DNA of 31,916 bases, taken from the IMG/VR virus record IMGVR_UViG_3300049043_000015, positions 1-31,916 of that record; one strand, written 5' to 3'. Source of the stretch: a virus. Positions 5,310 through 31,916 of the stretch are shown here, piece after piece (position 1 is the stretch's first letter; the number at the start of each line of letters is the position of its first letter). The notes under the pieces were generated by a model, which saw nothing but the letters and a program-made list of their open reading frames with translations, was not told where the DNA came from and ran no database searches. The position numbers and the translations under genes are program-made.

Positions 5310-5410
5310 ACCGCCCCTCCCTCTGGCCGCAAGCCATCGTATTTTTTTGTTGTGCCTTGTCGCCTGCGCTGTGGAGCCATGCGACGGGCATTCGTGTGAT
5401 CAAGAAGTAA
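5306..5410 (+). CDS. Tiny membrane-like peptide
   Basis: 34 residues, ATG overlapping the stop of the upstream gene. The centre (IVFFCCALSPALW) is hydrophobic and could form one short membrane helix; the ends are basic (VIKK at the C-terminus). Only position and the ATGA junction support it as a gene. Function unknown. Confidence 0.4.
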   Translation: MNRPSLWPQAIVFFCCALSPALWSHATGIRVIKK

Positions 5411-5430
5411 CCATTAAGGAGTTTAATTAA

Positions 5431-6068
5431 ATGAGCATTTTTGTTAGCGCATCATCTGGCGGCAACTATCCCGAGCGCAAGCCATTGGAAGCCGGAGCCT
5501 ACGCCGCAGTCTGCGATATGGTCGTCGATCTTGGAGTGCAGCCCTCACCTGGCGGACAGTTCGCGCCCAAGCGCACCCTGCTGCTGCGGTTCCAGATCCC
5601 GAGTGAGCGCGTCGAAATCACGAAGGACGGCGAGACGAAGAGTCTGCCCGCCGTGATTAGCCGCACCGTGGGCCTGTCATTAAACGAGAAGGCCACGCTT
5701 CGCCAATTGTTGCAATCGTGGCGGGGCCGTGCGTTTACGCCCGAGGAGTTGAAGAAGTTTGATCTGACGGCAGTCCTCGGCAAGCCCGCGTTCATCAACG
5801 TGACCCACAGCGACGAAGGGTGACAAGACCTACGCCAATTTGACCAGCATTATGCCCCTGCCAAAGGGCATGGCCGCACCGACCCTTGAGGGCGAGGCGC
5901 TGGTGGTTCTCGACCGACACTCCAAACCCAGACGCGTTCGAGCAAGTTGCCGACGTGGGTACAGGACAAGATCGCCGCGCGCATCATCGAGCAAGCCGAA
6001 TAGCCGCAGTCGCCTGCTCCGGCCTGCTGCCTGCGCCTGCGTTCGTTGACGATGAGGTGGCCTTCTAA
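5431..6068 (+). CDS. Putative single-stranded DNA-binding protein, frameshifted
   Basis: About 210 residues when joined. A clear ribosome site (AAGGAG, 5415-5420) precedes the ATG. The first 130 residues are in one frame (MSIFVSASSGGNYPERKPLE to KPAFINVTHSDEG). Shifts near 5820, 5925 and 5950 then lead through KGDKTYANLTSIMPLPKGM, TPNPDAFEQ and LPTWVQDKIAARIIEQAE. The C-terminus is Pro/Ala-rich and ends FVDDEVAF, an acidic tip with a terminal Phe like that of SSB proteins, which bind partners through it. Together with the nuclease that follows (TAATG overlap), this suggests ssDNA binding in replication or recombination. An OB fold cannot be proven by eye. A DUF669-like phage protein is the main alternative. 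Confidence 0.6.
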
Positions 6069-6779
6069 TGGCAACCGCAAGTTACGGATACAAACTGGCA
6101 GACGGCACGAAAGTGCCGTCCGTCACCACCATTCTCAAGATCAAAGACCCTGGCGCGCTCATCAACTGGGCTTATAAAACGGGTCGCGCTCATGGCAATT
6201 TGGAAGGCAAGGGCCAGTTCGCACCGGCCAATCTTGTACGATGGCAACGATGCCTTGCAGATCGGCACGTGCGTCCACGAAATGTGCGAGGTGTACGTAA
6301 AGGGCGGCGATCCGACCGCGCATCTTGACGCCGTGATGGAGAAAGCCGAGACGCTGGACAAGTCAGCATTCCGCGCGCAAGTCGTCAGCGCGTACAGTGC
6401 ATTTGAGTTTTGGTGCAAGGGCACGCAGTTGGAGATCCTCGAGTGCGAGGTGCCAGTGCTGTCCGAGACGCACCGCTACGGCGGCACGCTCGACTTCATC
6501 GGGCGGCTGAATGGTCGGCTTGTGCTCGGCGACTTCAAGACCAGCGGCGGGGTCTATCCAGAGTATCTGATCCAGTTGGTCGCGTATGCGAAGGCATACG
6601 AGGAATGCAAGGGCGTGAAGATCGACGGCGGGTATCACCTTCTGCGCTTCAGCAAGGAAAACGGCGATTTCGGGCACCACTTCTACCCGAAGCCTAGACG
6701 ACGATGCGTGGCCCGCGTTTCTCGCATTTGCGGGCGCTGCATGAATCTCAATGAGAAGTTGAAGAAACGGGCGGCTTGA
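6068..6779 (+). CDS. PD-(D/E)XK (RecB/Cas4-like) nuclease, frameshifted
   Basis: About 237 residues joined. It starts MATASYGYKLADGTKVPSVT, then TTILKIKDPGALINWAYKTG. After a shift near 6225-6240 it continues LYDGNDALQIGTCVHEMCEV, where the H follows the usual RecB-like GT-x-x-H pattern. Catalytic core residues are in GTLDFIGRL, LVLGDFKTS (D-x-K) and YLIQLVAYAKAY (Q-x-x-x-Y). A second shift near 6695-6705 restores LDDDAWPAFLA. The product probably degrades or processes DNA ends in phage recombination, with the SSB-like protein beside it as likely partner. Start and stop both overlap neighbours. Confidence 0.8.
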
Positions 6780-6876
6780 TTTTTTTACTGTCACGGCACG
6801 GCACTGCGAGTGGGCGCATGTGCCAAGCCCCAAATGGAGAGCCAAACTGGCGGAGAATACTAATGAGCGATTATAA
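6776..6876 (+). CDS. Tiny hypothetical protein, frameshifted at a T run
   Basis: A TTG at 6776 overlaps the nuclease stop (TTGA). If the seven-T run at 6780-6786 had eight Ts, the frame would read TTG-I-F-F then TVTARHCEWAHVPSPKWRAK and LAENTNERL before a TAA at 6874-6876, about 33 residues. It fits the tight packing of the operon. Function unknown; existence rests on the run length. Confidence 0.35.
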
Positions 6877-6878
6877 GA

Positions 6879-7064
6879 GTTAAAATCTTCGTTTCAAATG
6901 CGCGTATACGCAAAGCGATTGAGGCAGCAGGGTATACCTTCGTGCTTTCAGATGTGCAGGGTGAAAAACCTATCAATTAGCGCCACGTTTAATCTCGTGA
7001 ACATGAAAACCTCACCGCGCAACAAGAATGGAGAATGGAGATTGTGCGTGTTGAAGTTGGCTGA
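6879..7064 (+). CDS. Small hypothetical protein, frameshifted, start unclear
   Basis: The frame from about 6879 reads VKIFVSNARIRKAIEAAGYT, then FVLSDVQGEKPIN before a stop. The same frame resumes at EHENLTAQQEWRMEIVRVEV and ends G-stop at 7062-7064. The two in-frame stops near 6980 and 6992 vanish if the short stretch between them is read one frame over (LAPRLIS), so a compensating indel pair is likely. No standard start codon is visible at the N-terminus. About 61 residues, no family recognised. The stretch is AT-richer than the surrounding DNA. Confidence 0.35.
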
Positions 7065-7248
7065 TGCGTTGTATTCACTACCCGATGTATCTTTTTAGTG
7101 AGCAGCAAAAATTACTTGTCCTCAGAGACATTTACAGGCACTAGGGATGTTACTGAATTCAGAACTTGTCCGTATCAGCGAACAGTATATCTGGGACAAT
7201 CGTCTTGAAGATATGCAAGACAACGAAGGGGTTCGTCAGATTGCGTAA
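7064..7248 (+). CDS. Small hypothetical protein, frameshifted
   Basis: The ATG at 7064 overlaps the preceding TGA (TGATG). It reads MRCIHYPMYLFSEQQKLLVL, then RDIYRH and stops. One base added near 7140 joins it to MLLNSELVRISEQYIWDNRL and EDMQDNEGVRQIA, whose TAA overlaps the DUF3310 start (TAATG). About 61 residues, charged and probably soluble. The second half alone (7147-7248) could be a separate 33-residue gene. Function unknown. Confidence 0.4.
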
Positions 7249-7550
7249 TGGCCGATCCAATGTACACCGACGACGACGAAATGTTTCAAGACCTAACCCA
7301 CGACCCGGTAGATTCGCCACGGCACTACCAGTTGCGAATCGGCGGCGTGGACGCGGAAATGATCGACGTTATCCGCGCCATTCTTGGCGCTCGTGGCACG
7401 TTGACTTACTGCCACGGCTCGGCGCTGAAATATCTCGGGCGCGCTGGCAAGAAAGACGGCGCACCGACGGCGCAAGATCTTCGCAAAGCCGGGTGGTTTT
7501 GTACATTTGCGGCGCAAATCGCAGAAGATTTAGAGGGTGAGGACAAATGA
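7248..7550 (+). CDS. DUF3310 family protein
   Basis: 100 residues, intact. After an acidic N-terminus (MADPMYTDDDEMFQDLTHDP) it shows the DUF3310 pattern: SPRHYQLRIGGVDAEMIDVI, then TYCHGSALKYLGRAGKKDG and DLRKAGWF. In the family the conserved H-Y, the C-x-G-N/S-A-x-K-Y-L helix and the D-L-x-K-A segment are typical of phage proteins of unknown biochemical role, sometimes fused to nucleotide kinases. Both junctions are overlaps, placing it firmly in the early operon. Confidence 0.8.
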   Translation: MADPMYTDDDEMFQDLTHDPVDSPRHYQLRIGGVDAEMIDVIRAILGARGTLTYCHGSALKYLGRAGKKDGAPTAQDLRKAGWFCTFAAQIAEDLEGEDK

Positions 7551-7714
7551 TTAAGCAATCCTCGGCTGAAACTCTGCAAGCCATTGCCGATCTGCTCGGT
7601 ACGCGGCCGACCGCCGCAATGGTCGCAGCCGCGCTCGAGGCGGCATACTCGCTTGGTCGGTGCGACCAGGTGCTTGAGTCAACAAAGGTGGCGCAGCATG
7701 AACTGGCTTCTTGA
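7547..7714 (+). CDS. Small hypothetical protein
   Basis: 55 residues, ATG overlapping the DUF3310 stop (ATGA). It reads MIKQSSAETLQAIADLLGTR, then PTAAMVAAALEAAYSLGRCD. It is Ala-rich, predicted helical, and has no membrane segment. It overlaps the next small gene by 17 bases. Function unknown. Confidence 0.5.
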   Translation: MIKQSSAETLQAIADLLGTRPTAAMVAAALEAAYSLGRCDQVLESTKVAQHELAS

Positions 7715-7817
7715 CATGATCCGCCGCGTGCGGCACTCACGCCGCGAGGATTGGCGGCACGTCCCGCCGCCCAATTGGGCTTGCTCACGTAAACGTGCGG
7801 GAGGGCTTTACTGGTGA
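7698..7817 (+). CDS. Tiny basic hypothetical protein
   Basis: 39 residues: MNWLLDMIRRVRHSRREDWR, then HVPPPNWACSRKRAGGLYW. Strongly basic with several Trp; could bind nucleic acid or a protein partner. It is supported by overlaps at both ends (its TGA overlaps the next GTG). No family recognised. Confidence 0.4.
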   Translation: MNWLLDMIRRVRHSRREDWRHVPPPNWACSRKRAGGLYW

Positions 7818-8027
7818 AAGTAGAAATCTGTCCCGAAAGCATGGCAGAAATTACTCGGGCCTGAATTGCAGTTGACGCTGCAACTGTTCAAGAAGGATTT
7901 ACGCCAGCGGAAAGTGGGCAAAGGTACGGCGGTATTTGCTCACGATAAAGCAGCCGACATTGAGCAGATAAAGCGGCACGTGGAAGCAACGGAGATGCTA
8001 TTGCGATATTACGGTGAGCCTCAATGA
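7814..8027 (+). CDS. Small hypothetical protein, frameshifted
   Basis: A GTG at 7814 overlaps the upstream stop (GTGA) and starts VKVEICP. A one-base shift at the CCC near 7836-7838 gives PKAWQKLLGPELQLTLQLFK, then KDLRQRKVGKGTAVFAHDKA and EATEMLLRYYGEPQ. The stop overlaps the next ATG. About 71 residues, mostly helical and basic. Function unknown. Confidence 0.5.
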
Positions 8028-8272
8028 CCCACGACGACATCATCCGACTGGCGCAAGAGGCCAAGCTGCCTTACGAGTACGACACCGGGCGCGTTCTCCA
8101 CCTGAAAGAACTTGAACGCTTCGCCGCCCTCGTTGCTTCAGCCGAGCGGGAAACTTGCGCGCAAGTGTGCGAAGCAATTGCAGAAGAGTATGCATCTGAC
8201 CCGCGCAGCCCTGATCCAAATTATTGCGCCGCCGCTATTCGTGCAAGAGGAGAGGAGAGTTCTAATGGCTAA
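8024..8272 (+). CDS. Small protein with shared C-terminal Cys/RARGE module (copy 1)
   Basis: 82 residues. The N-terminus is MTHDDIIRLAQEAKLPYEYD, followed by a helical LKELERFAALV. The C-terminal part (AERETCAQVCEAIAEEY, then CAAAIRARGE) recurs in the genes at 8531 and 8917, with three Cys at matching places. The N-terminus also resembles that of the 8531 gene. The module is common in phage early genes, but its role is unknown; the conserved Cys may bind metal. Intact, with ATGA overlap at the start. Confidence 0.6.
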   Translation: MTHDDIIRLAQEAKLPYEYDTGRVLHLKELERFAALVASAERETCAQVCEAIAEEYASDPRSPDPNYCAAAIRARGEESSNG

Positions 8273-8534
8273 GTTACCGTACACATTTACCATTTATCCT
8301 GATCAACCTAACCCAAAGCAGGTCACTGCAAGTTGCGTTGAGATAGGGCTGTTACTTAAACACAGGGCTGATGGGGATTTAACCATTAGAAATGACAAAA
8401 AATATATCTGGGACTCATGGACGAACAGTGCTGTTAGTAAAGCAGCAGTCAGAGAAGTGACGGGTGGCGTGCATGAAATAATTGAAGATATGTTTAGAAA
8501 AAACAAACAGCCAACAAAGAAGATTAAGCCATGA
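8265..8534 (+). CDS. AT-rich small hypothetical protein
   Basis: 89 residues from the ATG at 8265, which lies 8 bases inside the end of the upstream gene and follows a purine-rich ribosome site (AGGAGAGGAGAG). It starts MAKLPYTFTIYPDQPNPKQV and ends NKQPTKKIKP. It is Lys-rich and AT-richer than its neighbours, suggesting a different origin. It sits between two genes that share a C-terminal module. No family recognised. Confidence 0.6.
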   Translation: MAKLPYTFTIYPDQPNPKQVTASCVEIGLLLKHRADGDLTIRNDKKYIWDSWTNSAVSKAAVREVTGGVHEIIEDMFRKNKQPTKKIKP

Positions 8535-8920
8535 CTCTTGACAATATTATTCAAATAGCGCGTGAAGTTGGATTCACTATAAAAGTAGAAGACGTTGATA
8601 AGTTTGAACGCTTCGCCGCCCTCGCGCAGCCGTCAGTAAAAGACACGCGAGACGAGGAAATTGCGCTGCTCCGAGAGGAAATCAAACGGCTACGCTTTTG
8701 CATACCTGAAGGCGATGCCGCAGCAGCGATGGAATATCTCGCGTATTGCGTGGAAAAGGCGGTAGCAGCCGAGCGGGAGGCGTGTGAGCAAGTATGTGAA
8801 CGCAGAAAAAGTCTTTACTGGATGGAGTTTGACAAAACAGGTAGCGATGCAGACAGGGCCGCTGCGATTGCATCCGAAGAGTGCAGCGACGCCATCCGTG
8901 CAAGGGGAGAAAGCAAATGA
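8531..8920 (+). CDS. Protein with shared C-terminal Cys/RARGE module (copy 2)
   Basis: 129 residues, intact, ATGA start overlap. The N-terminal part (MTLDNIIQIAREVGFTIKVE then KFERFAALAQ) resembles copy 1. The middle has a short charged coiled-coil-like stretch (EEIALLREEIKRLRF). The end carries the module: AEREACEQVCERRKS, then CSDAIRARGE. Function unknown. Confidence 0.6.
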   Translation: MTLDNIIQIAREVGFTIKVEDVDKFERFAALAQPSVKDTRDEEIALLREEIKRLRFCIPEGDAAAAMEYLAYCVEKAVAAEREACEQVCERRKSLYWMEFDKTGSDADRAAAIASEECSDAIRARGESK

Positions 8921-9213
8921 AAAGCGAAATTAAATTCATGTCTGGCGGTGTAGAAGGTATTGAGGTTTTATGCCTTTCAAAAGAAGGTGTTTGGGTTAAC
9001 CCGAACGTGCCTGTTGATGAAGCAACGAGATATGTTCTAAAGGCGTTAGGTTCTCACGTTAAAAGGTTAATTGATGAGGCAATCAAAGCCGAGCGGGAGG
9101 CGTGTGCGAAAGCCTGCGAGTGGGAAGCCGCTAAATTAGAGCAATGGCCCCAACGCGATGTGCTTACAGTTAGAGCCTGCGCCGCCGCGATTCGGGCAAG
9201 AGGTGAAACATGA
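8917..9213 (+). CDS. Protein with shared C-terminal Cys/RARGE module (copy 3)
   Basis: 98 residues from the ATG at 8917, which overlaps the previous stop (ATGA); an upstream start at 8881 is not needed. The N-terminus (MKSEIKFMSGGVEGIEVLCL) is unlike copies 1 and 2. The C-terminal module is clear: AEREACAKACEWEAAKL, then ACAAAIRARGE. Function unknown. Confidence 0.6.
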   Translation: MKSEIKFMSGGVEGIEVLCLSKEGVWVNPNVPVDEATRYVLKALGSHVKRLIDEAIKAEREACAKACEWEAAKLEQWPQRDVLTVRACAAAIRARGET

Positions 9214-9476
9214 AAGACGAATGGGATTTAGAAGTTGAACGTATGCCGTGGCGCTTCAATCCGCCGAAGCCGGATTTACGCGCGGCGCTCTTACAATTGC
9301 GCTCATTAGGATTTAACGCCGAGGCCGACTTGATCGCGGGCGAGGTTCTCAGCGTGCAGAAGGTGAGGGCCAAGGAGGCCGAGGCGTACATTCTGCTATC
9401 GGCTGCGTGGCCTGCGCTGGTACGTGCTGGCCGCACGGAATTGGCCGATCAGATTTCGCAGTTCCTCGCCGACTAG
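9210..9476 (+). CDS. Hypothetical protein, last gene of early rightward operon
   Basis: 88 residues, intact, ATGA start overlap. It reads MKDEWDLEVERMPWRFNPPK and then a run of helices (LRAALLQLRSLGFNAEADLI, LVRAGRTELADQISQFLAD). Helical, soluble, no motif recognised. Its TAG forms a CTAG with the stop of the opposing late gene, so the two operons meet with no gap and no visible terminator. Confidence 0.6.
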   Translation: MKDEWDLEVERMPWRFNPPKPDLRAALLQLRSLGFNAEADLIAGEVLSVQKVRAKEAEAYILLSAAWPALVRAGRTELADQISQFLAD

Positions 9477-9673
9477 CGCCGGACGTGGTAGGGGCTGGCC
9501 TTCTTGAAATGGTCAGTCATTGCACTGCACGGCTTGATCGATAGGCCGACGCGATCGCCGGATGCGAGCAGTGAAACTTTCGAGTTGCGATACACGAAGA
9601 AGGCGCAATTCTGGCAGAGTTCCGGTTCGGCCCATGACAACTCTGTTATCAGTTCACGATCCAGCACGCGCAT
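9473..9673 (-). CDS. Small Cys-containing hypothetical protein, last gene of late operon
   Basis: 66 residues from the ATG at 9673, two bases after the stop of the phosphoesterase; the longer frame to 9700 is not preferred. It starts MRVLDRELITELSWAEPELC, with a C-x-x-C pair (CQNC) and one later Cys (KPCSAM). Possibly a small metal-binding protein. No family recognised. Confidence 0.5.
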   Translation of the reverse strand: MRVLDRELITELSWAEPELCQNCAFFVYRNSKVSLLASGDRVGLSIKPCSAMTDHFKKASPYHVRR

Positions 9674-9675
9674 GG

Positions 9676-10675
9676 CTACACCGGAGCGCCTCGGAACCAC
9701 GCCTTGCCAGCGTCCACCGCGACGATCTCCGGCTTGAGCAGCCGCCCCTCGCGGTACGTCAGCACCACGAAGCCCGACGCCCAGTTCAGCGGCCCGGCTT
9801 CAACATACGTGAACTGCGGGCCTTTCGGCTCGGCCATCGTGCCGCAATCTACGCCGAAGCGTTGGCCGCGATAGTCAGCCCACGGCGTATATTGCAACTT
9901 GTGCAGATGGCCGTGGACGTAGTGCGTGCCAGCGCGCAGTGCCGAATTGTAGGCCGCGTGTATTCCACCGGATACGGGCCGATGCCGTAATGACCGTCCA
10001 TGCATACTGCTCTGCGTTCAGATGCACGGCCCAGCCCGCGCGCCAGCGTGGCAGATAGTCGATCAGTGTGGAACCTGGCACCTCTTCAAGTTCGGGCACG
10101 TTGCTCGATAAGTAATTCTCGAAGCGTGCATCGTGGTTCCCGATGGTGCGTAGCAACTGCGCTTTTCCAGCCGCGCGCTCAATCTCCGCGCATCGATCCT
10201 GCACCGCGTGCAGTTCGTCCTTCAGTTCGGGCTGCTTTTCCCACATGATCCGCGAATGCCGACTGATCCGCGCGCCGTCCAGAATGTCTCCATTCAGAAT
10301 CACGATGTCGGGCTTTAGCGCCTTCGCCAACTTGCAGAATGCCTCATGCGCTGGCGTAACCACGCCCGGCCAGTAGTGGCAATCGCTCGCCACCATCACC
10401 ACGCCGTCGTGCAGTTCGAGGTGCATTTCGGATTCGTAGCGCCGCGCGCGCTGCTCTGCGAGTCGGTTAGCAGCCTGCCCTGCTTCGGCCTTGATACCGG
10501 TCGTGCAAGTCGGAGCAACCTTACTCGGCAACGCTATGCCGTGTTTTGCCTCAAGCGAGCGCCTGCGCTGATGGACACTTCGCACCTGCAGAGACAGTGC
10601 GTCGGCTACTTTTTTAGGTGATCCGTAACGCTTCCATGCGTCGATGAATTCCTCGTCGGTGAAACGCTTAGGCAT
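9676..10675 (-). CDS. Calcineurin-like metallophosphoesterase with N-terminal HTH-like segment, frameshifted
   Basis: About 333 residues. The N-terminus (FTDEEFIDAWKRYGSPKKVA to VHQRRRSLEAKHG) looks like a helix-turn-helix of the kind that senses DNA. The catalytic domain has the metallophosphatase series: SDCHYWPG (D-x-H), NGDILDG (G-D-x-x-D-G), IGNHDARFE (G-N-H-D), and after a shift YVHGHLHKLQYTPW (G-H-x-H). The shift lies at about 9990-10010; joining restores a continuous domain ending AWFRGAPV. The family hydrolyses phosphate esters using two metal ions; the phage substrate (DNA, RNA or nucleotide) is unknown. The ATG follows the stop of the HEWTH protein directly. Confidence 0.82.
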
Positions 10676-10967
10676 TTAATCCTCAAAGGTGGTTAGGGAT
10701 TGCTGGAGCAGATGCCCCAGTTGATCGACGAATTGCTCGTCTCGAGACAGCGGGTGCGCCATCATATCAAGCATGGCGTGTGTCCACTCGTGGCAGAAGG
10801 TTTGCTGTAGTGATGTCATCGGCTGACCGCCGAGGATCTCAATGCGTAGTCGATCCGGTATCCAGATGCCGACGCAATCTTTATGCTTCCACCGGCTGCG
10901 CGGTATGACTCGAACCGTGATGTTGTGCCCTGAGAAGTTTGAAACTCTTAGGGATGCCGGTTTTCAT
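10676..10967 (-). CDS. Small HExxH (zinc metallopeptidase-like) protein, frameshifted
   Basis: This gene is visible only by reading across a shift. From the ATG at 10967, with ribosome site AAGGA just upstream, it reads MKTGIPKSFKLL, then, with one base removed near 10925-10935, HNITVRVIPRSRWKHKDCVG. Next come IWIPDRLRIEILGGQPMTSL, TFCHEWTHAMLDMMAHPLSR and a short helix ending LTTFED. CHEWTHAMLD is an HExxH zinc site in a helix, as in SprT/ImmA-like gluzincins. Length is about 97 residues, so it is a minimal version of such a fold. It lies between endolysin and phosphoesterase; whether it cuts a protein is unknown. Confidence 0.6.
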
Positions 10968-10976
10968 GTTTCGTCC

Positions 10977-11459
10977 TTATTGGCTCAAGAACATTGACCG
11001 CTCATCGTTCCGTCGCTTGACCAGCCCAGGCAATACCCTGCCTGCTGCTTTTGTCCACATGAGAAACGCATCGGCTGCGCCTTCGATATCGCCTCGGTTG
11101 TAGCGCATACGGATGCTGCTGCGCTGGAGGTTTCCGAGGCCAACGTTGAAGGCAAAACTTACCAAAGCGTCGAATTGGCCTTGATGACCAAGAGCAGCAG
11201 GGCAAAGTCGGGCCACGCCGCGCTCAAACTTCGCAAGGTCTTGAGCCAAAATAGCGTCCACCTCGTCCATCGTGAGTGTTCGATCCCACCCTGCGGGTAT
11301 CGGTAGACTGCGCCGCTCTTCATACTTCACCGCTGCGTGTGATGGGTCGATAACGTGTCCGACGCCGACACTCCAGAGTAGCGCCGGGCACTGATACGGC
11401 CGAGTGCGGACGCCCTCATGGTGCTTAATCATGCGGATGGCCGCTGCTGACACTTTCAT
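10977..11459 (-). CDS. Endolysin, GH24 lysozyme
   Basis: 160 residues, intact. Muramidase of the T4/lambdoid type that breaks the peptidoglycan glycan chain at the end of infection. The catalytic Glu is in IKHHEGVRTRPYQ (about residue 15), followed by the GVGHVIDPSH loop and the FDALVSFAFNVGLGNL helix. It ends LPGLVKRRNDERSMFLSQ, the usual GLVxRR pattern. No signal peptide or anchor helix is apparent (N-terminus MKVSAAAIRMI), so export should depend on the holin. The ATG overlaps the holin stop. Confidence 0.92.
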   Translation of the reverse strand: MKVSAAAIRMIKHHEGVRTRPYQCPALLWSVGVGHVIDPSHAAVKYEERRSLPIPAGWDRTLTMDEVDAILAQDLAKFERGVARLCPAALGHQGQFDALVSFAFNVGLGNLQRSSIRMRYNRGDIEGAADAFLMWTKAAGRVLPGLVKRRNDERSMFLSQ

Positions 11460-11941
11460 TTTTGACTGAAAGCGCGTCCACCAAAATGAAAGGCGATGAT
11501 GCTGGCAAGGATCGCCATCTCATCGTCGCTGAATACGTTTTCCATCGCAATCGCAAACGGAATGCCGGTCGTGTAGGCATACCACACGCCAGCCACGTTG
11601 AGCGCGACAAGTTCCAGCACGAAAATGTAGGTCACGACAGGCCGCACACTGGCGCGTAGATTTATCATCCACTGACTCGCGCCCTTGCCGATCTCAATAT
11701 CGTGCTGGTACAGGGCTTGCCGCTCTTCGCCAGCGGTCTCGGTCTGGATTTGTTCCAGTTTTATTTCCTCGACCCGCGCTTGTGCGATCAACCCGCGTTC
11801 AGCCAGCGCCAACTCGCGCTCTTTTTGCGCTGCGACAAGGGCAAGTTCGTGCTTCTTGTCTTGCTTGTCCTGCATCATCCCGAGGATTTTGGGCAGACCG
11901 CCCGCGAGGAATGACAGAAAGGTGCTGATCATCGTCATCAT
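11456..11941 (-). CDS. Holin of 3TM / gene-transfer-release type
   Basis: 161 residues, intact. It has an N-terminal hydrophobic part (ISTFLSFLAGGLPKILGMM), a long charged helix (KKHELALVAAQKERELALAE), and then WMINLRASVRPVVTYIFVLE, leading into two further membrane segments (VALNVAGVWYAY and MAILASIIAFHFG). Order and the conserved W-to-RP-V-T stretch match the phage/GTA 3TM holin family. It would permeabilise the inner membrane so the endolysin encoded next can reach the wall. ATGA overlaps at both ends. Confidence 0.82.
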   Translation of the reverse strand: MMTMISTFLSFLAGGLPKILGMMQDKQDKKHELALVAAQKERELALAERGLIAQARVEEIKLEQIQTETAGEERQALYQHDIEIGKGASQWMINLRASVRPVVTYIFVLELVALNVAGVWYAYTTGIPFAIAMENVFSDDEMAILASIIAFHFGGRAFSQK

Positions 11942-12195
11942 TTTTGACGCTCCTCCATCAACTTCACGCGCACTTTCAGATCGTGGATATCTTCCATGAT
12001 GTCATCCTTCATGTCCTGCCTACGGGCTGCGCTAACCGGGCTATCGGTCGGTACACCCTCTGACGTAATCAGAGCAGGCATCTTTGACTCAATAGACAGC
12101 AGACGATTGTTGAACGATGCAATCTCGGTAAGCAGCCAACCTACTGCGGCCAGCAGTACCGGGAAGAGCATATCGACCACTTTTTGCATATTCAC
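11938..12195 (-). CDS. Small membrane protein with coiled-coil tail
   Basis: 85 residues from the GTG at 12195 (GTGA overlap); an ATG at 12189 is equally possible. One N-terminal membrane helix (MLFPVLLAAVGWLLTEIA) is followed by NNRLLSIESKMPAL and a charged coiled-coil end (DIHDLKVRVKLMEERQK). Topology resembles an antiholin or an i-spanin-like protein, but no family is certain. Its place directly before the holin suggests a role in lysis timing. Confidence 0.6.
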   Translation of the reverse strand: MNMQKVVDMLFPVLLAAVGWLLTEIASFNNRLLSIESKMPALITSEGVPTDSPVSAARRQDMKDDIMEDIHDLKVRVKLMEERQK

Positions 12196-12347
12196 TTGTC
12201 GGCCTTTTTGTTTATCAGATCCCAGGCCGACTTCATCTTGTCCTCAAGAACCGCCACCCTTAGGTCAAGTTTTGACAAGACAATAATCAGCGTGATGAGT
12301 GCAAGAATGACGGGCCACGCTCTAGTAAACATTTCGAATATGTCCAT
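12192..12347 (-). CDS. Tiny single-helix membrane protein
   Basis: 51 residues: MDIFEMFTRAWPVILALITL, then IIVLSKLDLRVAVLEDKMKS and a short basic end KKADK. One membrane helix followed by a helix-forming charged tail. It sits in the lysis cassette; its stop overlaps the next gene's GTG. Function not recognised. Confidence 0.55.
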   Translation of the reverse strand: MDIFEMFTRAWPVILALITLIIVLSKLDLRVAVLEDKMKSAWDLINKKADK

Positions 12348-12355
12348 AGTGCCCC

Positions 12356-12547
12356 CTACTTTTTACTGTTTGCGATCTTCTCTCTGATAGTCAGAGCATG
12401 AGAAATGATTGCAAACAATCCGACGATAATGGCTGTGACACCAGCAATAAACGTGACGATCTCATTCGCACTTGAAAACCAACTGGTTCCCGCTGCTGCA
12501 ATCGATACCCCTGCGGCAATATCCGCGCCTCTGTTCGTGTTCATCAT
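12356..12547 (-). CDS. Small membrane protein, possible second holin-like protein
   Basis: 63 residues, intact. The ATG pair overlaps the J stop (ATGA). The N-terminal half is Ala/Gly-rich (DIAAGVSIAAAGTSWF). The second half has a clear membrane helix (IVTFIAGVTAIIVGLFAII) followed by a basic end (REKIANSKK). The layout is like small phage holins. First of four membrane proteins leading into the endolysin. Confidence 0.6.
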   Translation of the reverse strand: MMNTNRGADIAAGVSIAAAGTSWFSSANEIVTFIAGVTAIIVGLFAIISHALTIREKIANSKK

Positions 12548-14847
12548 GGCGGCACTCCCCCTCCACCCAGTCTCGTAATCGTTACCGGCACGTCCGCCGT
12601 TGCGGTCAGCGGAGTGCCACCTGTCGAATCCGTCACGGTGCAGCGGTAGATGCCCGAAACAAACTCATCCTCGTTCAGCGTGGCGCTAAATGTCGTCGTC
12701 GCCGCGCTGGCGCTTGTAATCGTGAAACTGTCGCCAGATACAAACGTCCAGGCGTAGGTATACGGAGCCGTTCCACCCGAGGGCGTCACCGTCGTAGATG
12801 CCGTCGTCAGCGTTGAGGCTGTGCCGGTCTTGCTCAACGTGCTGGGCGACGCGCTGGCTGTCATTGCCACGCGCGTAATCTCCACCGACACGATTGCAGT
12901 TTTCGTTGCGGCTGCTGCATCGGTCACGGTGCAAGTAAAGACCGCGCTATAGGTCGAGCCGCTTGCAAGACTTGAGCCTGTGAACGTGGTGGTTGCAGCC
13001 GTTGAGGATGTCGCCGTGATTGACGTAGAGCCGCTAGTGCGCGCCCATGAATAAGTGTAGGGCGCAGTGCCACCCGCAGCCGTGACAGTCACAGAGGCCG
13101 TCACAATGGTTGCTCCGGTGTCGGTCTTGCTGACAGAGGACGGGGCCACGGTAGCGGTCAGCGAACCGGGAATAGAGTCGGCCGCAGCGGCCACGCCATT
13201 GGTGGCTGGCTCGGTGGTCGAGGTGTTGCCCGCATCCGTCCGCACGCGCACCCAGTAGTACCGGGTTGTCGTGTCGTTTTTCGGGATGAATACCGACGTT
13301 GCTACGCCCGACCAGATGCGGACAGCCGATGAGAATGGCGTAACCGAGGTGTGCTCGTAGACTTCATACACCGAGCCGGTCGGAAGTACAGCCGGTGCCG
13401 TCCACGAAAGATTGAAGCCGCTTGCTAGGTTCTTGGCGGTAAGCCCAGTCGGCGGAGCAGGAATATAGGTCGATGGCACCGGAGTGCTCACAGATGTCGG
13501 GGTTTCGTAATCGCCCACGAGCGGATCGCTCCAGTCGCTTGAGTCTTCCTCGCGCACGACTAACTCAACGAACCCAGCCGGGTTGAACTGCCACGATTCG
13601 CAGCGGACGTACTTGTTAGTCCAGCCGAGTTCAGCAATCGTGATCTGGCCGACATCAAACGGACGAATCTTGTAGGCAGACATTCCCGCGCGAATCGTCG
13701 CAATCAGTGGCATTTCGCCCACGGCGCGACAGCAGGATCGCATGGCGCTGCGCTTCGTACTCGTTGGTGCAGGCTGCGAAATCAACATCAAGCCACGTCT
13801 GCTCGCCGTCGGCGGTCACATAGGATGTATTGATAACCGGCTGAAACTCCATCTGCTGCCAGTTCTTGCTCGGCATTCACAAACTGATCCGCGCACGCTG
13901 TTGTAGCGGTTGTTGTAAGGCAGTGCCGTTGTGACGTTTATCCCGCTGTCAATCAGATCGGATTCGTCAAGCGTGAAATGACGACGATTGCCACGCGCCC
14001 GCAAACATTCTCCACTGACCGCCAGAGTAATAGCAGACGCCAGCCATTGCATCGACTAACTTGGTGATGTTGTCCTCGAACGAGTCTGTAGCGAGTAGCA
14101 CCACATTGCACGTATATCGTTTCTGCGTAGCCGGGCCTGGGATGTTCACGAGTTCGTCGCAGATATCCGCAGCGTCAGCGACCAGCACCCAGTCTATGCG
14201 GTCGGTATCCTCGCCAAGCCCGAGCCGTGTGGAAATCAGATAGTCGGCAAGGCAGAGCGCAGGGTTAGACGAGTAGGCAAACGTGGATGGGTCATCAAGA
14301 CGCTGTGAGCCAACTCCGCCCGGCTGCGTGGAGTCCAGCCGCGGATCATAGACTCGCTTTCCTTCCACAAGCACGGTCACTTCCGGCTTTCCTGTCTTGT
14401 ATACCGTTTCGTCGAATTGGTACGTCAGCGCGAGATAGCCGACCTCGCGCCCCCGATGGCCCGAAGTCCACTCGGTAAATGCTGTATTCAGTTTGTAGTC
14501 GGCCGTCTGCTCATTGGTGCCACGATATGCACGCACCCATGCTTTATTGCTCCACGCGCCGCTTGTCACCTTGCCGTCGTCATCCGATCCGGTAATAGCC
14601 GTGATGGTGCCGATGGCCGTGCGATTGAAATAGATTTGGCCGATGCTGTTGAGTTCGTGACCGGACAGCGCCAAGACTTGATGCAAGTATTCGTTATTCG
14701 TGCCAGAGGTCAGCGGCGGAATCACGTTCATTCCAGAGACCAGCATCTCGCCGTATATGATTCTTCGAGGCTTCGATGTTGCCCAGAATACTCAACATCG
14801 TTTTGCGGCTTTGGAATTCTAGGAAGTTTGATTAGAGACTGCGTTAC
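12544..14847 (-). CDS. Host specificity / tail tip protein, lambda J type, frameshifted
   Basis: About 767 residues, forming the tail tip that contacts the host. The start is unclear: the frame begins at GTA (14847), perhaps a misread GTG, then TQSLIKLPRIPKPQNDVEYS. Shifts around 14760-14800 lead to RRIIYGEMLVSGMNVIPPL, the typical start of J proteins. Next comes the J body (QVLALSGHELNSIGQIYFNR, TEWTSGHRGREVGYLALTYQ, CLADYLISTRLGLGEDTDRI, FEDNITKLVDAMAG). Further shifts lie near 13980, 13885 and 13735. After AYKIRPFDVGQITIAELGW come a fibronectin III-like domain (PPTGLTAKNLASGFNLSWTA) and two Ig/PKD-like domains, each with GGTAPYTYxW. It ends GGGGVPP. Confidence 0.85.
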
Positions 14848-14986
14848 CTTTTTAGCGCATACATACTGCCGCCAATACTGGCGACCGCAAAAAAGACCCA
14901 GTAACGTATCCCGCTATGGCCGATCCGGTTGCATAAGCGACTGCGCCTGCAATCTGTCCAGCGACAACGAATATTGCTTGAGGCAT
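14844..14986 (-). CDS. Small membrane protein in lambda I position, frameshifted
   Basis: About 47 residues. The ATG at 14986 overlaps the previous stop (TAATG). It reads MPQAIFVVAGQIAGAVAYAT, then GSAIAGYVTGS. Adding one base to the six-base run at 14889-14894 gives FFAVASIGGSMYALKR. It is Gly/Ala-rich and hydrophobic, like the small I-type proteins encoded between K and J, thought to act in tail tip assembly. Its stop overlaps the J start. Confidence 0.5.
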
Positions 14987-15375
14987 TACCAGACCCCCAT
15001 CACCGAAGCCTTCGGCAATGTCACCGGGCCATTCAAGCCAAGCGCCGCAATCGCACGCCCTGTGCAGATGCCGAGCATCTCACGCCCTGCGTTCTCTATC
15101 AGCACGACATCACCACGCATTGGCCGAGTGCGCCGCATCTCGCCGAGGTACTCGCAGACCGCTGGGCCGATGCCGCCTTGCGCTTCGATGTACGCCAACG
15201 CGCTGGCCTCGTCGTGATAGCGCGCGGCCAGTGCTTCGGCGTGGTGCGTGTCGTGCATCGCATCGTAAACACGCGCGGCAAACAGACAGCAGTCATCCAC
15301 GCCCCACGCAAACGCGCGGCCCTCGTGCGCCTCGATGGTTTCCCACATTTTATCGAGCCAGTCTGCGCGCTTCAT
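14986..15375 (-). CDS. DUF6950 / NlpC-like tail assembly protein (lambda K position)
   Basis: 129 residues, intact, ATGA start overlap. It has W-D-K-M-W then FAWGVDDCCLFAARVYDAM, where the W-G-x-D-D-C motif carries a candidate catalytic Cys. RGDVVLIENAGREMLGICTG follows as the strand pair expected in an NlpC/P60-like fold, with GLNGPVTLP near the end. By position it matches lambda K, a tail tip-associated peptidoglycan hydrolase. Activity is not proven; many DUF6950 proteins lack a complete triad. Confidence 0.7.
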   Translation of the reverse strand: MKRADWLDKMWETIEAHEGRAFAWGVDDCCLFAARVYDAMHDTHHAEALAARYHDEASALAYIEAQGGIGPAVCEYLGEMRRTRPMRGDVVLIENAGREMLGICTGRAIAALGLNGPVTLPKASVMGVW

Positions 15376-16084
15376 TTTTTAGCCGGTTGTCCGCCAGTGC
15401 CACGCCCGCTGCCGTCAGTACCAGGCAAGCCGCCACCACCATAGGATGCGTCACGATTTCCCCATTGGGAAATAAAGCCGGGAATTGCATAGATAAGATC
15501 GAAAAATTGATCGTTCGGGAAAGATAATCTTCTGATCCTCGTCCGGTGAATCTTCCGATGCGAGGCTCGCGGCGCAGTCGGTATTCGCAAGTGAGTTTGA
15601 TATCTGCAACGCCCTTTGCAAGATTCAAGGACATTTGATTCATGCGACCTTCCCAGACAACCTCGGGCGTGTCTATGAATGTCCCGTCGGTTTGATTAAG
15701 GAAGCCGAGATAAATAACTACCGAGCGATTCTGGTAGTTCTCTGTCATGGTCGTTGAGACTAAAGACGACATCGACGCCGGAAAGCGTTAAGGTTATTGA
15801 TCTAGCGATAACCTCGATGCTTTCCGTCAACGATGTCGATTCCGCCAAACTTGCCCACGCCGTAGAAGGTTTCGGCTGCGGCCTCAAGTGAGATGTTCTC
15901 GGGTACTTCGGTTTGCAGATTGTCGCCGTCTTCCATGCGGAGCAGCCCGGCAAAGGTCAATCTCACCAACGCCGTCATGGACGCGAACAACGCCAGAAGA
16001 GAAGTCCAACTCGGCAAGCACCACCATGTAGACCGATGGCTTATCGGCCTCTGCGGCATTGTCGCCGCTGACTATTCTGCTCAC
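15372..16084 (-). CDS. Minor tail protein (tail tip, lambda L region), frameshifted
   Basis: About 237 residues. The GTG at 16084 overlaps the upstream TGA (GTGA). It reads SRIVSGDNAAEADKPSVYMV, then LDFSSGVVRVHDGVGEIDF. A shift at about 15955 gives GLLRMEDGDNLQTEVPENIS and FYGVGKFGGIDIVDGKHRG. A shift near 15800 gives SITLTLSGVDVV, and others lead into NRSVVIYLGFLNQTDGTFID, VADIKLTCEYRLRREPRIGR and FPNDQFFDLIYAIPGFISQW. The E-Y-R-L-R-R to R-F-T and F-P-x-D pattern is typical of phage tail tip proteins before an NlpC-like protein. It ends PAKK, overlapping the next start. Confidence 0.65.
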
Positions 16085-26409: not shown

Positions 26410-26753
26410 CGAGTAACCTCCGCGTCAACGGTGAAACATCCTTGGATAAGGCGCGTTACCGTTCCGCCGCTAGAGACCACCTCAAGGTCATAGACGTATT
26501 CGCCCGCAGTCACCGCAGCCGTATCGGTCGCAGAGACCAAAAGCGTGATCGTACCCGCAGCGCCGCCAAGTGTAATGCGGCTGTTCTCTGTGGTCAGAGA
26601 TAGCAGCACGGTCGAAGAGTCAGCCGTCGCACGTACTTGCATCCGTGCAGTGTATCCGGTCAGATTCACCGCATTGGCCGATGAATCCTGCCACGTCAGA
26701 ATGCGCGTGAAGGTTGCGCCTTGATCGCAAACGATGTCGTAGTTAGCCGCCAT
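26406..26753 (-). CDS. Small beta-sandwich virion protein (BppU N-terminus-like)
   Basis: 115 residues, intact. It starts MAANYDIVCDQGATFTRILT, then NLTGYTARMQVRATADSSTV, ITLGGAAGTITLLVSATDTA and GEYVYDLEVVSSGGTVTRLI. The order of Gln-Gly-x-x-F, G-Y-x-A-R-M-Q-V-R and Y-x-Y-D-L-E-V is common in small phage proteins with an Ig/BppU-like fold found beside fibre genes. Likely joins a fibre to the head or neck. Overlaps the portal end by 11 bases. Confidence 0.6.
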   Translation of the reverse strand: MAANYDIVCDQGATFTRILTWQDSSANAVNLTGYTARMQVRATADSSTVLLSLTTENSRITLGGAAGTITLLVSATDTAAVTAGEYVYDLEVVSSGGTVTRLIQGCFTVDAEVTR

Positions 26754-28190
26754 TGTTCACCTCGGGCGGAATGGGTGACGTGCCGCCGGGCAATGTCACG
26801 CCAAAACTGGAAATGATCTCTTCCTCTGCTTGACGCTCGCGCATCACGTCCTCGATGTCCAGCCCACGCTCGGCCAGCGCCTGCGTGCGGGTCATCAGTC
26901 CGTTGTTGATGGCGACAATCTGCGCCTCGGCCTCATTGCGCGGGTCTACCCACTGCCAGCCGCGCGGCACCCACTGGGTCGCGCTGAACTTGACAAACTT
27001 ACTTGCGGGAAGATTGACCACGCCAGCGTCGAGCGTCTGCCGCAGCCAGCGCAGATACACTGGCTGGCAGAAGTGCTCAATCACCCAATTCTGCACCATG
27101 CGCCAGTGATCGCGCTCTTCGAGCAAGCCCTGTCGAATGCTTGAGTACGAAACCGCCTCAAGATCGTTAGCCAGTGACGTATACGACACGCCGAGGCCCG
27201 ATGCGATACCGCGCAGCATTGCCTTCTCGAAGTCTCTGAAAAGCCGTGCTCGGGTGCTGCGGGTCATAAGACTTGAAATCGACACCGGCTGGCAACTGCG
27301 CGAACTGTCCAGGCTGCACGTCCATCGACAGCGAGCCGTCGGGGTTGTTGCCATCGCCTTGGTACTCATCGCCGCTTTCGCTGACGAAAAAGCCCATCTT
27401 GCTGGCCGAGATACGCGCGGCGACTAGTTCCGCCTCCTCGTACCCGCCCAGCATCTTGAGGCGCGTCATCGCCGTCGCAGTCCACCGGTGAGCCGCGATT
27501 CTGACCGATACGATCCGGCCGGAATGCGTGAATCATTCGGTCAGCCGGTATACGCTCGGTGCGCGGGTTCGTGCTGCCGATCTGGTAGTCATCGGGCGGA
27601 CGCACGCGAACGTGGTAAGCAATCGGTCTGCCCGAAGCGTCCACCTCGATGCCCATCCGAATCTGTCCGCCGTTGGCGAGAATCTCGTTCTTGTCTTGGT
27701 CGATCAGATCTGGGTCAATGAACTGCAATCGGAATCGGAATGGGTTTGCGTTGTCCTCAACAAATAGCACAAAGCATTCGCCATCGCGCGCGACCGATTC
27801 GATAAACACGCGCTGCGCGTCAATCCACGACAGCCGACCATCGACCGTGCAGACGCCCGGCTGGCCCCATGCGTAGAACGCTGCCTCGAGTTGCTGGTTA
27901 GCAATCTGATCCAGCGAGCCGGTTAACTCCCGCGCACGCACTTGCAGCGTGATCCCCTTCGGCCCGACTACGTTAGTCGAGACTAGGTTCAGATACCGCC
28001 GCGCGTAGTCGTTATTCTGGCAAAGGTCGCGCGACCGCGCGCGCATCGCTCGCAGAGCGTAGCGCAGATCGCTGTCGGCGGTCTTTGTTTGAGTCATCCA
28101 GTCGCTAAACAATCGGCCGGTGTTAGCGGCCTCGAATCCTCGCTTGCGAGAGGGCTTTGGCGTGCGCTTGAAGATATCCAATATGCTCAT
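26743..28190 (-). CDS. Portal protein, lambda gpB type, frameshifted
   Basis: About 482 residues. Forms the ring at the capsid vertex for DNA entry and exit. The ATG at 28190 overlaps the upstream stop. It starts MSILDIFKRTPKPSRKRGFE and shows DNDYARRYLNL-like NNDYARRYLNLVSTNVVGPK, then RLSWIDAQRVFIESVARDGE, LQFIDPDLIDQDKNE and DRMIHAFRPDRIGQNRG. One extra base near 27489 and one in a T run near 27235 break it. Restored parts read PWTATAMTRLKMLGGYEEAE, FFVSESGDEYQGDG and AMLRGIASGLGVSYTSLAND. It ends LPGGTSPIPPEVNNGG. Length and motif order match the Phage_portal_2 family. Confidence 0.9.
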
Positions 28191-30251: not shown

Positions 30252-31916
30252 CTATCTCCATCCGTTTACCCACCCACCTGGGCGGGGTCTTAAATTCGGT
30301 CGCGTCGATCTCTGCTGTATCTGCGGCTGCACTTGCGGGCGATTCTCGATCACCCTCGGCGCTGCCGCCTCTACTTTTCGATTCGGCAAAATCATCGGGC
30401 CACCACGGCCGATATACGCCGCGTAAGCGTACACCATGCAATCTAGTGCCTCGGTGCGTGCGCCCGCTGCGCGCGGCTTGTATGACCTCACGCGACGGCC
30501 CTGCACCATCCTGTAAATCAATGTCTCGGCGGTCAACTGGTCAAAGTAGACCTCATCGACCGATGCGGGAAAATGAATGTATCCCGCACCCGGCTCGGCG
30601 ACACGCTTTAGCCTTCCGAATAGAACGTCTTTCGCCGTGTCTACGCCGACAATAAAAACCTGCGCCGAGGTTTTACCCGCCTTGCCTGCGTGCTTCGGCC
30701 AGATCAACCGGCCGAACCCGCCCGCTCCCTTGATTGCCCACACGCGCCGCGACTTTCGCTTGGCTGCGTATCCGTAGACCTGTTGTGTAAAGTGTCCGCC
30801 CGAGTCAATCGCGCACGCTTCGATCAGCATCGGCGCGCCGTCTTCTCTTGATCGTGCGCGCTCTCAGGAATGCGTCGTGATCTTTCCACAGATCGTCCGA
30901 GCCGGGATCACCGCGCAAGATCGCGTGCTCTACTAGCCACGCTTCCTCATCTCGCCCCCACGCCCACACGCTGCACTCAAGCCGGTCGTCCTGCACGTCC
31001 GTGCCGACAGTTAGCATCAACGCGCCAGCAGGAATCGTCTGCGATCCGTACTGCTCGCGCCTTGCTGCTAACCCTATAGCCTCGACTTGCTCGCCCTTTT
31101 CCTCGAATGTCTCACCGAGCGCCGTGTTGATCCACGTTTGCAGCGTTTCGGGAAATCGTTTGGCCGCGACAAATGCTACGGCCATTTCCGACCATGTAGA
31201 CCAAGGCGAGTACAACTCCGAAATATGAAACGATGCAATCCCGCGAAACTCTTTCGTGCCGCGCCACTCGCCCTCGCGCAGCATCTGCGTCTTGTCTGCT
31301 TCGGTCAGCAGTACGCCGCACGCGACGCACGCATATTGCGCCGCTTCCGGCTGACCCTCCGGCCATCGTACCTGTGCCCACACGAGCCGCTGCGATTCTC
31401 CGCAATGCGGGCAGGGCACAAAGTAAAACCGCTGATCGCCCGACTCGAAACCAGCCTCGATGCGGCTTGATCCCTTAATGGTCGGCGTCGATCCTGCCAG
31501 CACCTTTCGATTCCAGAATGTCGCCGTGCGCTTTCGCCCCAGCGAAATCGGGTCGCCCTCGGTGCCCGCGCTCGCTGGGTATCTGTCCACCTCGTCAAAG
31601 AGCACCACGCGAATCGGACGTGATGCCAATCCGCTCGGGCTGTTGGCACCGGCCACCGTCAGATGCCCGCCTGCGAATTTTTTATGCAGTAGCGTGTTGC
31701 CCGTGTCGCGCGACTTCGGATCGGCTATGCGCTCGGTCAGCACAGCCGTGTCGCGCACCATCGGTGCAAGTCTGTCTTTGCTCCAACTCTCCGCCATCTC
31801 AAGCGTCGGCTGCACGAGCAGCATCGGCGCTGGGTCTTGATGGACGTGGTAGCCGATTACGTTGTTGAGGACTTCCGTCCATCCGACCTGGGCGGACTTC
31901 ATCACCCAGACTTCCT
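30252..31916 (-). CDS. Terminase large subunit, GpA family, partial at N-terminus, frameshifted
   Basis: Packages DNA into the prohead; the window edge removes its N-terminus. The visible part opens EVWVMKSAQVGWTE, the GpA-type Walker A, then IRVVLFDEVDRYPA (Walker B with D-E). A zinc pair CPHCG and CVACG sits in between, and the nuclease part has LTVGTDVQDDRLECSVWAWG. Near 30840 one base must be added so that RARTIKR continues EDGAPMLIEACAIDSGG, the usual GpA C-terminal part. It ends PRPGGWVNGWR. It is followed closely by a fibre-like gene, not by gpW directly. Confidence 0.92.

Follow-up and report, generated by a model that had tools for sequence, protein, structure and literature searches.

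The locus described here raises the question of whether a broken reading frame next to the lysis genes of a virus conceals a real protein and, if it does, which neighbouring gene gives that protein its context. The window that we analysed is the entire virus record of 31,916 bases. On its minus strand, the frame whose stop codon lies at 10676–10678 ends in ...TFCHEWTHAMLDMMAHPLSRDEQFVDQLGHLLQQSLTTFED* and encodes CHEWTHAMLD, the motif by which an earlier note on this DNA had picked out a hidden metallopeptidase-like protein. The only ATG that yields the amino end of the family, at 10967, is out of frame with the HEWTH-coding part, and a single frameshift at about 10929–10936, where the note had placed it, therefore divides the gene (Table 1).

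Table 1. Features of the small HExxH gene and its surroundings, in positions of the window
Feature	Position	Strand	Remarks
Metallophosphoesterase, phrog_221	9676..10675	-	PF00149; abuts the HExxH stop codon; private frameshift near 9987
Three-helix HTH-like amino end of the phosphoesterase, residues 7-45	10541..10657	-	AlphaFold helices 7-17, 20-27, 31-45
Small HExxH gene, phrog_1233	10676..10967	-	Intact, 96 residues; one frameshift at about 10929-10936
Asp81, second conserved residue of the DExFVD motif	10724..10726	-	37/37 alignment rows; 116/118 distinct sequences
Glu77, candidate third zinc ligand	10736..10738	-	37/37 alignment rows; opens the last predicted helix
HEWTH motif, His59, Glu60 and His63 of the intact protein	10778..10792	-	118/118 distinct sequences, by selection
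Endolysin, PF00959 phage lysozyme	10977..11459	-	124.1 bits; phrog_7; upstream neighbour
phrog_6637 protein of the lysis region, unknown function	11456..11941	-	Holin-like by position only

The frameshift and the private insertions of the record

The window fragment matches phrog_1233 at 9.8e-8 and a scan of viral contigs with the small HExxH protein returned 82 relatives, so the frame is not a product of chance. The hidden small protein proposed at 10676–10967 is thereby confirmed, although the 97 residues claimed for it give way to 96 in intact relatives. Such relatives, which the earlier note had thought worth seeking, all preserve the gene: across the matched region the frame is uninterrupted in each of the 80 examined (the best 80 of the 82), one of which, L080, begins within the gene at its contig end. 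The gene is unbroken in dozens of freshwater phages, the residues encoded by two relatives, L001 and L002, are the same as those of the window (100% over query residues 12–95), and the extra base is absent from 16 of 16 near relatives and thus private to the window.

Compared with three or more relatives, the 10,407 window bases covered within 5339–15960 contain 31 one-base insertions and 2 deletions that are private; the same treatment of 12 control relatives gave no private insertion and one deletion, in a single relative. The phosphoesterase gene is likewise split into two frames, by a change that is private against 15 of 15 relatives. Because the relatives are unbroken and the window is rich in private insertions, comparison of the sequences indicates that an error of sequencing or assembly in the record, and not gene decay, almost certainly accounts for the frameshift. 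That it is genuine, leaving a pseudogene or a gene expressed through programmed frameshifting, is barely conceivable: the frame is indeed broken in the record's only copy, but the single frame of all 80 relatives over the matched region and the many further one-base insertions private to this record, the phosphoesterase gene included, led us to reject both possibilities. Elsewhere in the window, at 26743–28190 and 30252–31905, adjacent frames resemble split portal and terminase genes, probably further record errors. Frequent one-base insertions in a record can conceal real genes, and gene splits in this one are not to be taken for pseudogenes.

Conservation and predicted fold of the small protein

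The small HExxH protein belongs to a real phage family that is known but unnamed, and all 23 members tested match the phrog_1233 profile (best 3.8e-12). Membership in three Pfam families was considered and rejected: for SprT-like (PF10263), which 21 of 23 members match at E ≤ 1 (best E 1.8e-4), L002 scores 13.0 bits against a gathering score of 25.6; DUF4344 (PF14247) gives 16.9 bits against a cut-off of 29.6; and Peptidase M78/IrrE (PF06114) is absent for L002 at E ≤ 1 and found for 1 of 23 members, at E 0.043. The protein likewise falls under the cut-offs of the other Pfam metallopeptidase families. Only chance-level matches came from NCBIfam and, save for a weak match to IrrE, from sequence searches of the PDB. 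By tblastn, neither INPHARED phages nor PLSDB plasmids gave a match to the window fragment, and a distant family member found no match in INPHARED, where a control search with the endolysin matched 1430 records; a nucleotide search with 9600–12600 gave no match among phages. A first scan of genome contigs returned no relative of the protein and a second returned one MAG contig, at 40% identity.

An alignment of 37 sequences has H59, E60, H63, D76, E77, F79, V80 and D81 in every row. Among 118 distinct sequences, which were picked by HExxH alone beside phosphoesterases so that the Glu of HExxH is part of the selection, 117 retain Glu77. AlphaFold modelled the natural relative L002 with a mean pLDDT of 93.8 and a pTM of 0.86 (of the five models, two scored lower, with pLDDT 72.0 and 63.2) and confidently predicts a small zincin-like protein with a single compact fold, in keeping with the zincin type that the earlier note had suggested looking for by structure prediction. 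In this model HExxH, present in 37 of 37 sequences, lies on helix 50–68, and Glu77 is the first residue of the following predicted helix, 77–92. Its conservation and modelled position make Glu77 a fitting candidate for the third metal ligand. Of the two outcomes that the note had named as refuting its reading, a frameshift confirmed in accurate reads and the lack of a third ligand in models, neither arose. Together with the helix after it (ExxVDxLGxLL), Glu77 resembles what we take to be the third-ligand helix motif of M78 proteases.

The exact zincin family is not fixed by these comparisons, because all matches to solved structures have Z < 8 and Foldseek against the PDB returned no match at E ≤ 0.001 (IrrE, E 0.07). 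The best solved structure is IrrE (3dti; Z 7.5, rmsd 3.4, 83 aligned), followed by PprI (Z 7.0), ArdC (6sna; Z 6.5), CapP (7t5t; Z 6.2), the DPC-repair protease 6mdw (Z 6.0), 5jig (Z 5.7) and the minigluzincins (Z 5.2–5.8). Comparison with predicted viral proteins gave 14 matches at E ≤ 0.001, headed by one named SprT-like (E 1.4e-6, TM 0.8); the others bear the names peptidase, metallopeptidase or uncharacterized. The remark that the protein is very small for such an enzyme does not hold up against the solved minigluzincin chains of 104–112 residues; with 96 residues in one compact fold, it has the size of these single domains of about 100 residues.

A gene pair with exchangeable partners

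Downstream of the small HExxH gene lies a metallophosphoesterase (MPE), and the two form a tight, conserved gene pair. Of 102 distinct contigs carrying the small gene, 6 end too early to show what follows it; in 95 of the 96 with room, an open frame of 100 aa or more begins at -103 to +7 from its stop, and in 69 of these 95 the MPE start overlaps the HExxH gene. The exception, L137, has MPE matches in place without a long open frame starting there. The intact MPE has 332 aa in L002, and the window frame scores 26.0 bits against PF00149 (gathering score 21.5). Clustering at 90% left 21 MPE representatives, which comprise proteins 64–92% identical to the first as well as classes at only 16–21% identity; the metal-site motif residues are invariant in all 21, Pfam Metallophos is matched at E ≤ 0.01 by 13 and HTH_8 by 6. 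Their PHROG labels read metallo-phosphoesterase and, in part, DNA repair exonuclease or exonuclease. By fold, the modelled MPE matches YfcE (Z 15.0), Vps29 and LpxH (about 14), DP1 (13.7) and Mre11/SbcD (13.2–13.5) and so does not single out nucleases; a PDB sequence search with it returned no MPE among its matches.

The pairing was also approached from the other side, through viral-contig scans that were seeded by four MPE classes only, ignoring the small gene, and from which the best 80 loci per class were taken (320 in total). Of the 320 loci, 212 have an adjacent HExxH frame, which lies upstream of the MPE in 176 and behind it in 36, against a background of 67 in 11,836 non-adjacent frames of the same loci; since the loci are related, the counts are not independent, and the 176 upstream matches amount to 118 distinct sequences. 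A small protein with CCxC..H and without HExxH occupies the same slot in 79 loci, an HslV-like frame is found in 4, and 7 loci with room bear none of the partners. The association is tightest in class C, with HExxH upstream in 76 loci, CCxC..H in 1 and 3 loci too short. Class A has 47 loci with HExxH upstream (one of them a lysozyme frame in which HExxH occurs by chance, retained in the counts), 29 with CCxC..H, 1 with both and 3 too short, and two of its frames are tagged HslV-like by pattern only. Class D has 26 with HExxH, 49 with CCxC..H, 1 with none and 4 too short, and class B has 27 with HExxH upstream, 36 with HExxH downstream, 4 HslV-like, 6 with none and 7 too short. No HExxH–MPE fusion protein occurs in the 320 loci, and a search for degenerate zincin copies in MPE loci that lack the zincin gave nothing significant (best E 0.05, lysozyme-like frames).

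Of the eight named phage records with MPE relatives that we examined, 4 have no such partner. An HExxH frame lies upstream of the MPE in MW202879 and MW202713 and downstream in MW202674, and MW202691 has CCxC..H upstream. The HExxH frames at locus position 2346 in L144 (MW202713.1) and 3676 in L141 (MW202674.1) look SprT-like and are missing from the gene tables, and the phosphoesterase of MW202713 carries the annotation archaeal DNA polymerase II.

The partners are exchanged independently of each other. HExxH proteins that are 88% identical precede MPEs that are about 21% identical (a weak local match), and an MPE 91% identical to that of the window lineage has a CCxC..H protein in front. In class B, SprT-like proteins sit behind the MPE; one of the two tested, in L263, lies above the Pfam cut-off (30.3 bits against 25.6) and the other falls 0.1 bit below. 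Ahead of class B MPEs, the HslV-like partner is phrog_1040 in 3 of 3 tested, and this HslV-family peptidase stands immediately before the MPE at L253:1673-2482, L256:1941-2498 and L291:1878-2393. Proteins with a WYRVKGYTHTECCDCALVHKE-type motif occupy the zincin's slot before the MPE at L316:2209-2508, L396:2128-2484 and L184:2286-2498, and three of three CCxC..H proteins had no match in Pfam or PHROGs. Behind another class B MPE, at L284:3493-4194, a 234-residue frame with HETCH has weak DUF6782/Tox-MPTase4 matches.

On the other flank of the pair, one of four lysis-type genes is nearby in 145 of the 255 MPE loci having 1.5 kb upstream, and its type varies between lysozyme, M15-like, amidase-like and other, the last three labels being our own. 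The earlier note was right to call the place between endolysin and phosphoesterase notable, but the meaningful neighbour is the phosphoesterase and not the endolysin, because the lysis genes change while the MPE stays attached. A dependence of the pair on the endolysin was rejected, because the lysis gene differs in type between phages.

Possible roles of the pair and known systems

We hold it highly probable that the gene is real, its frameshift an artefact and its pairing conserved. The fuller reading, in which this 96-residue minimal zincin and its MPE would act jointly on protein-bound DNA, is a tentative proposal to which we would give somewhat less than an even chance. The gene of the predicted HExxH...E zincin is the first of a packed pair closing a late, lysis-proximal operon, and the second gene encodes a calcineurin-like metallophosphoesterase, whose amino end is in most cases HTH-like. 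In the proposed mechanism, this end would recruit the phosphoesterase to DNA, proteins bound there would be cleaved or removed by the small zinc protein, and the phosphoesterase would serve as a nuclease or end-processing enzyme, with labour divided as between SPRTN/Wss1-type proteases and Mre11-type nucleases on DNA–protein crosslinks. SPRTN/Wss1-type proteases are described as handling such crosslinks. A share in processing them falls to the Mre11-type nuclease. Action on protein-bound DNA is suggested by the HTH-like end, by the labelling of some MPEs as exonucleases and by partners drawn from lesion-handling protease families; the proposal is weakened by the CCxC..H loci, by an MPE fold that is not specific to nucleases and by the position in a late operon, an unusual place for replication or repair genes. 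A broader version is doubtful: here the MPE would be coupled to any of a set of small partners that can replace one another (a CCxC..H protein, an HslV-like protease, a SprT-like zincin or a minimal zincin of the phrog_1233 type), and the two would form a widespread and undescribed phage module, a compact late protease–nuclease device on protein-bound DNA and a phage counterpart of SPRTN/Wss1 and Mre11.

Because 79 of the 320 MPE loci carry CCxC..H without HExxH, the slot may provide something other than proteolysis. It could be filled by a small zinc-binding accessory that loads, senses or holds metal for the MPE, or by a structural adaptor, and the presence of CCxC..H before MPEs up to 91% identical to that of the window lineage speaks for this. 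We nonetheless consider an accessory unlikely, since the Glu of HExxH (partly by selection) and the Glu at the putative third-ligand position are kept, although a simple scaffold could do without them, the SprT-like and HslV-like partners both belong to protease families, and zinc binding by CCxC..H is suggested by its motif alone.

Regulation by proteolysis, in the manner of IrrE, ImmA or CapP, is improbable. The zincin would here cleave the HTH part of the adjoining MPE and so switch it on or off, as favoured by IrrE being the top fold match, with CapP lower, by the three-helix HTH-like end in class A MPE models and HTH_8 in some representatives, and by the precedent of IrrE cleaving the repressor DdrO, as given in PMC7907104. 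The class C MPEs (256 aa) weaken this reading, because they begin at the catalytic domain, without an HTH, and yet show the tightest pairing. Equally hard to credit is a role in the envelope, with the pair helping to break that of the host late in infection: the pair follows lysis genes and the MPE fold is equally near LpxH and nucleases, but the pair persists while lysis genes vary in type, the predicted fold begins at the start of the small protein and would leave no room for a signal peptide, and the Pfam search returned no cell-wall family match for that protein. We also attach little probability to host takeover or anti-defence, in which the zincin would cut host proteins and the MPE destroy host signals or DNA. 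Exchange of partners suits a role in conflict, and a review of jumbo phages (PMC7824862) puts forward the idea that phage peptidases of the SprT-like and ArdC-like kinds have targets in the host and that certain calcineurin-like enzymes play counter-signal roles; against it, nothing observed points directly to a target, and none of five proteins matched PADLOC anti-phage profiles at E ≤ 0.01, a search that tests defence rather than counter-defence.

We found no description of the HExxH–MPE pairing in the open literature as far as it was searched, PMC7824862 and PMC10783043 included, and an open-literature search on phrog_1233 likewise yielded none; the conserved gene pair is apparently undescribed. 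Phages commonly carry unexplained genes for metallophosphoesterases and for small metallopeptidase-like proteins, and the pairing of the two offers a context in which both can be tested. Should the pair indeed clear protein-bound DNA, it would constitute a very small protease–nuclease system; if it does not, the exchange of zincin and CCxC..H still raises the question of what the MPE needs from its neighbour.

Among known systems, IrrE/ImmA (Pfam M78, COG2856) offers the best solved match to the small protein in 3dti, from which the protein differs in falling under the family cut-offs and in having a phosphoesterase, not an Xre-type repressor, as its neighbour; IrrE also has a longer loop ahead of its third ligand. 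With SPRTN/Wss1/SprT-like proteins it shares a related minimal zincin fold, and SprT-like proteins stand in the adjacent slot at class B loci. The third metal ligand of SprT is His, in contrast to the conserved candidate Glu77 here, and when the profile of the small protein was compared with that of a SprT protein from a pair, HExxH alone was common to both. The minigluzincins abylysin, jannalysin and selecase (PDB 4jiu, 4jix, 4qhf) are likewise soluble single domains of about 100 residues with HExxH, but searches by sequence found no match between them and the small protein, and their fold matches reach no more than Z 5.2–5.8. PHROGs lists unknown function for phrog_1233, of whose 306 profile positions the small protein matches about 100. 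Its partner belongs to the phage metallophosphoesterases (phrog_221, phrog_7339, phrog_704 and phrog_284), whose four classes are only about 20% identical and yet have the partner slot in common.
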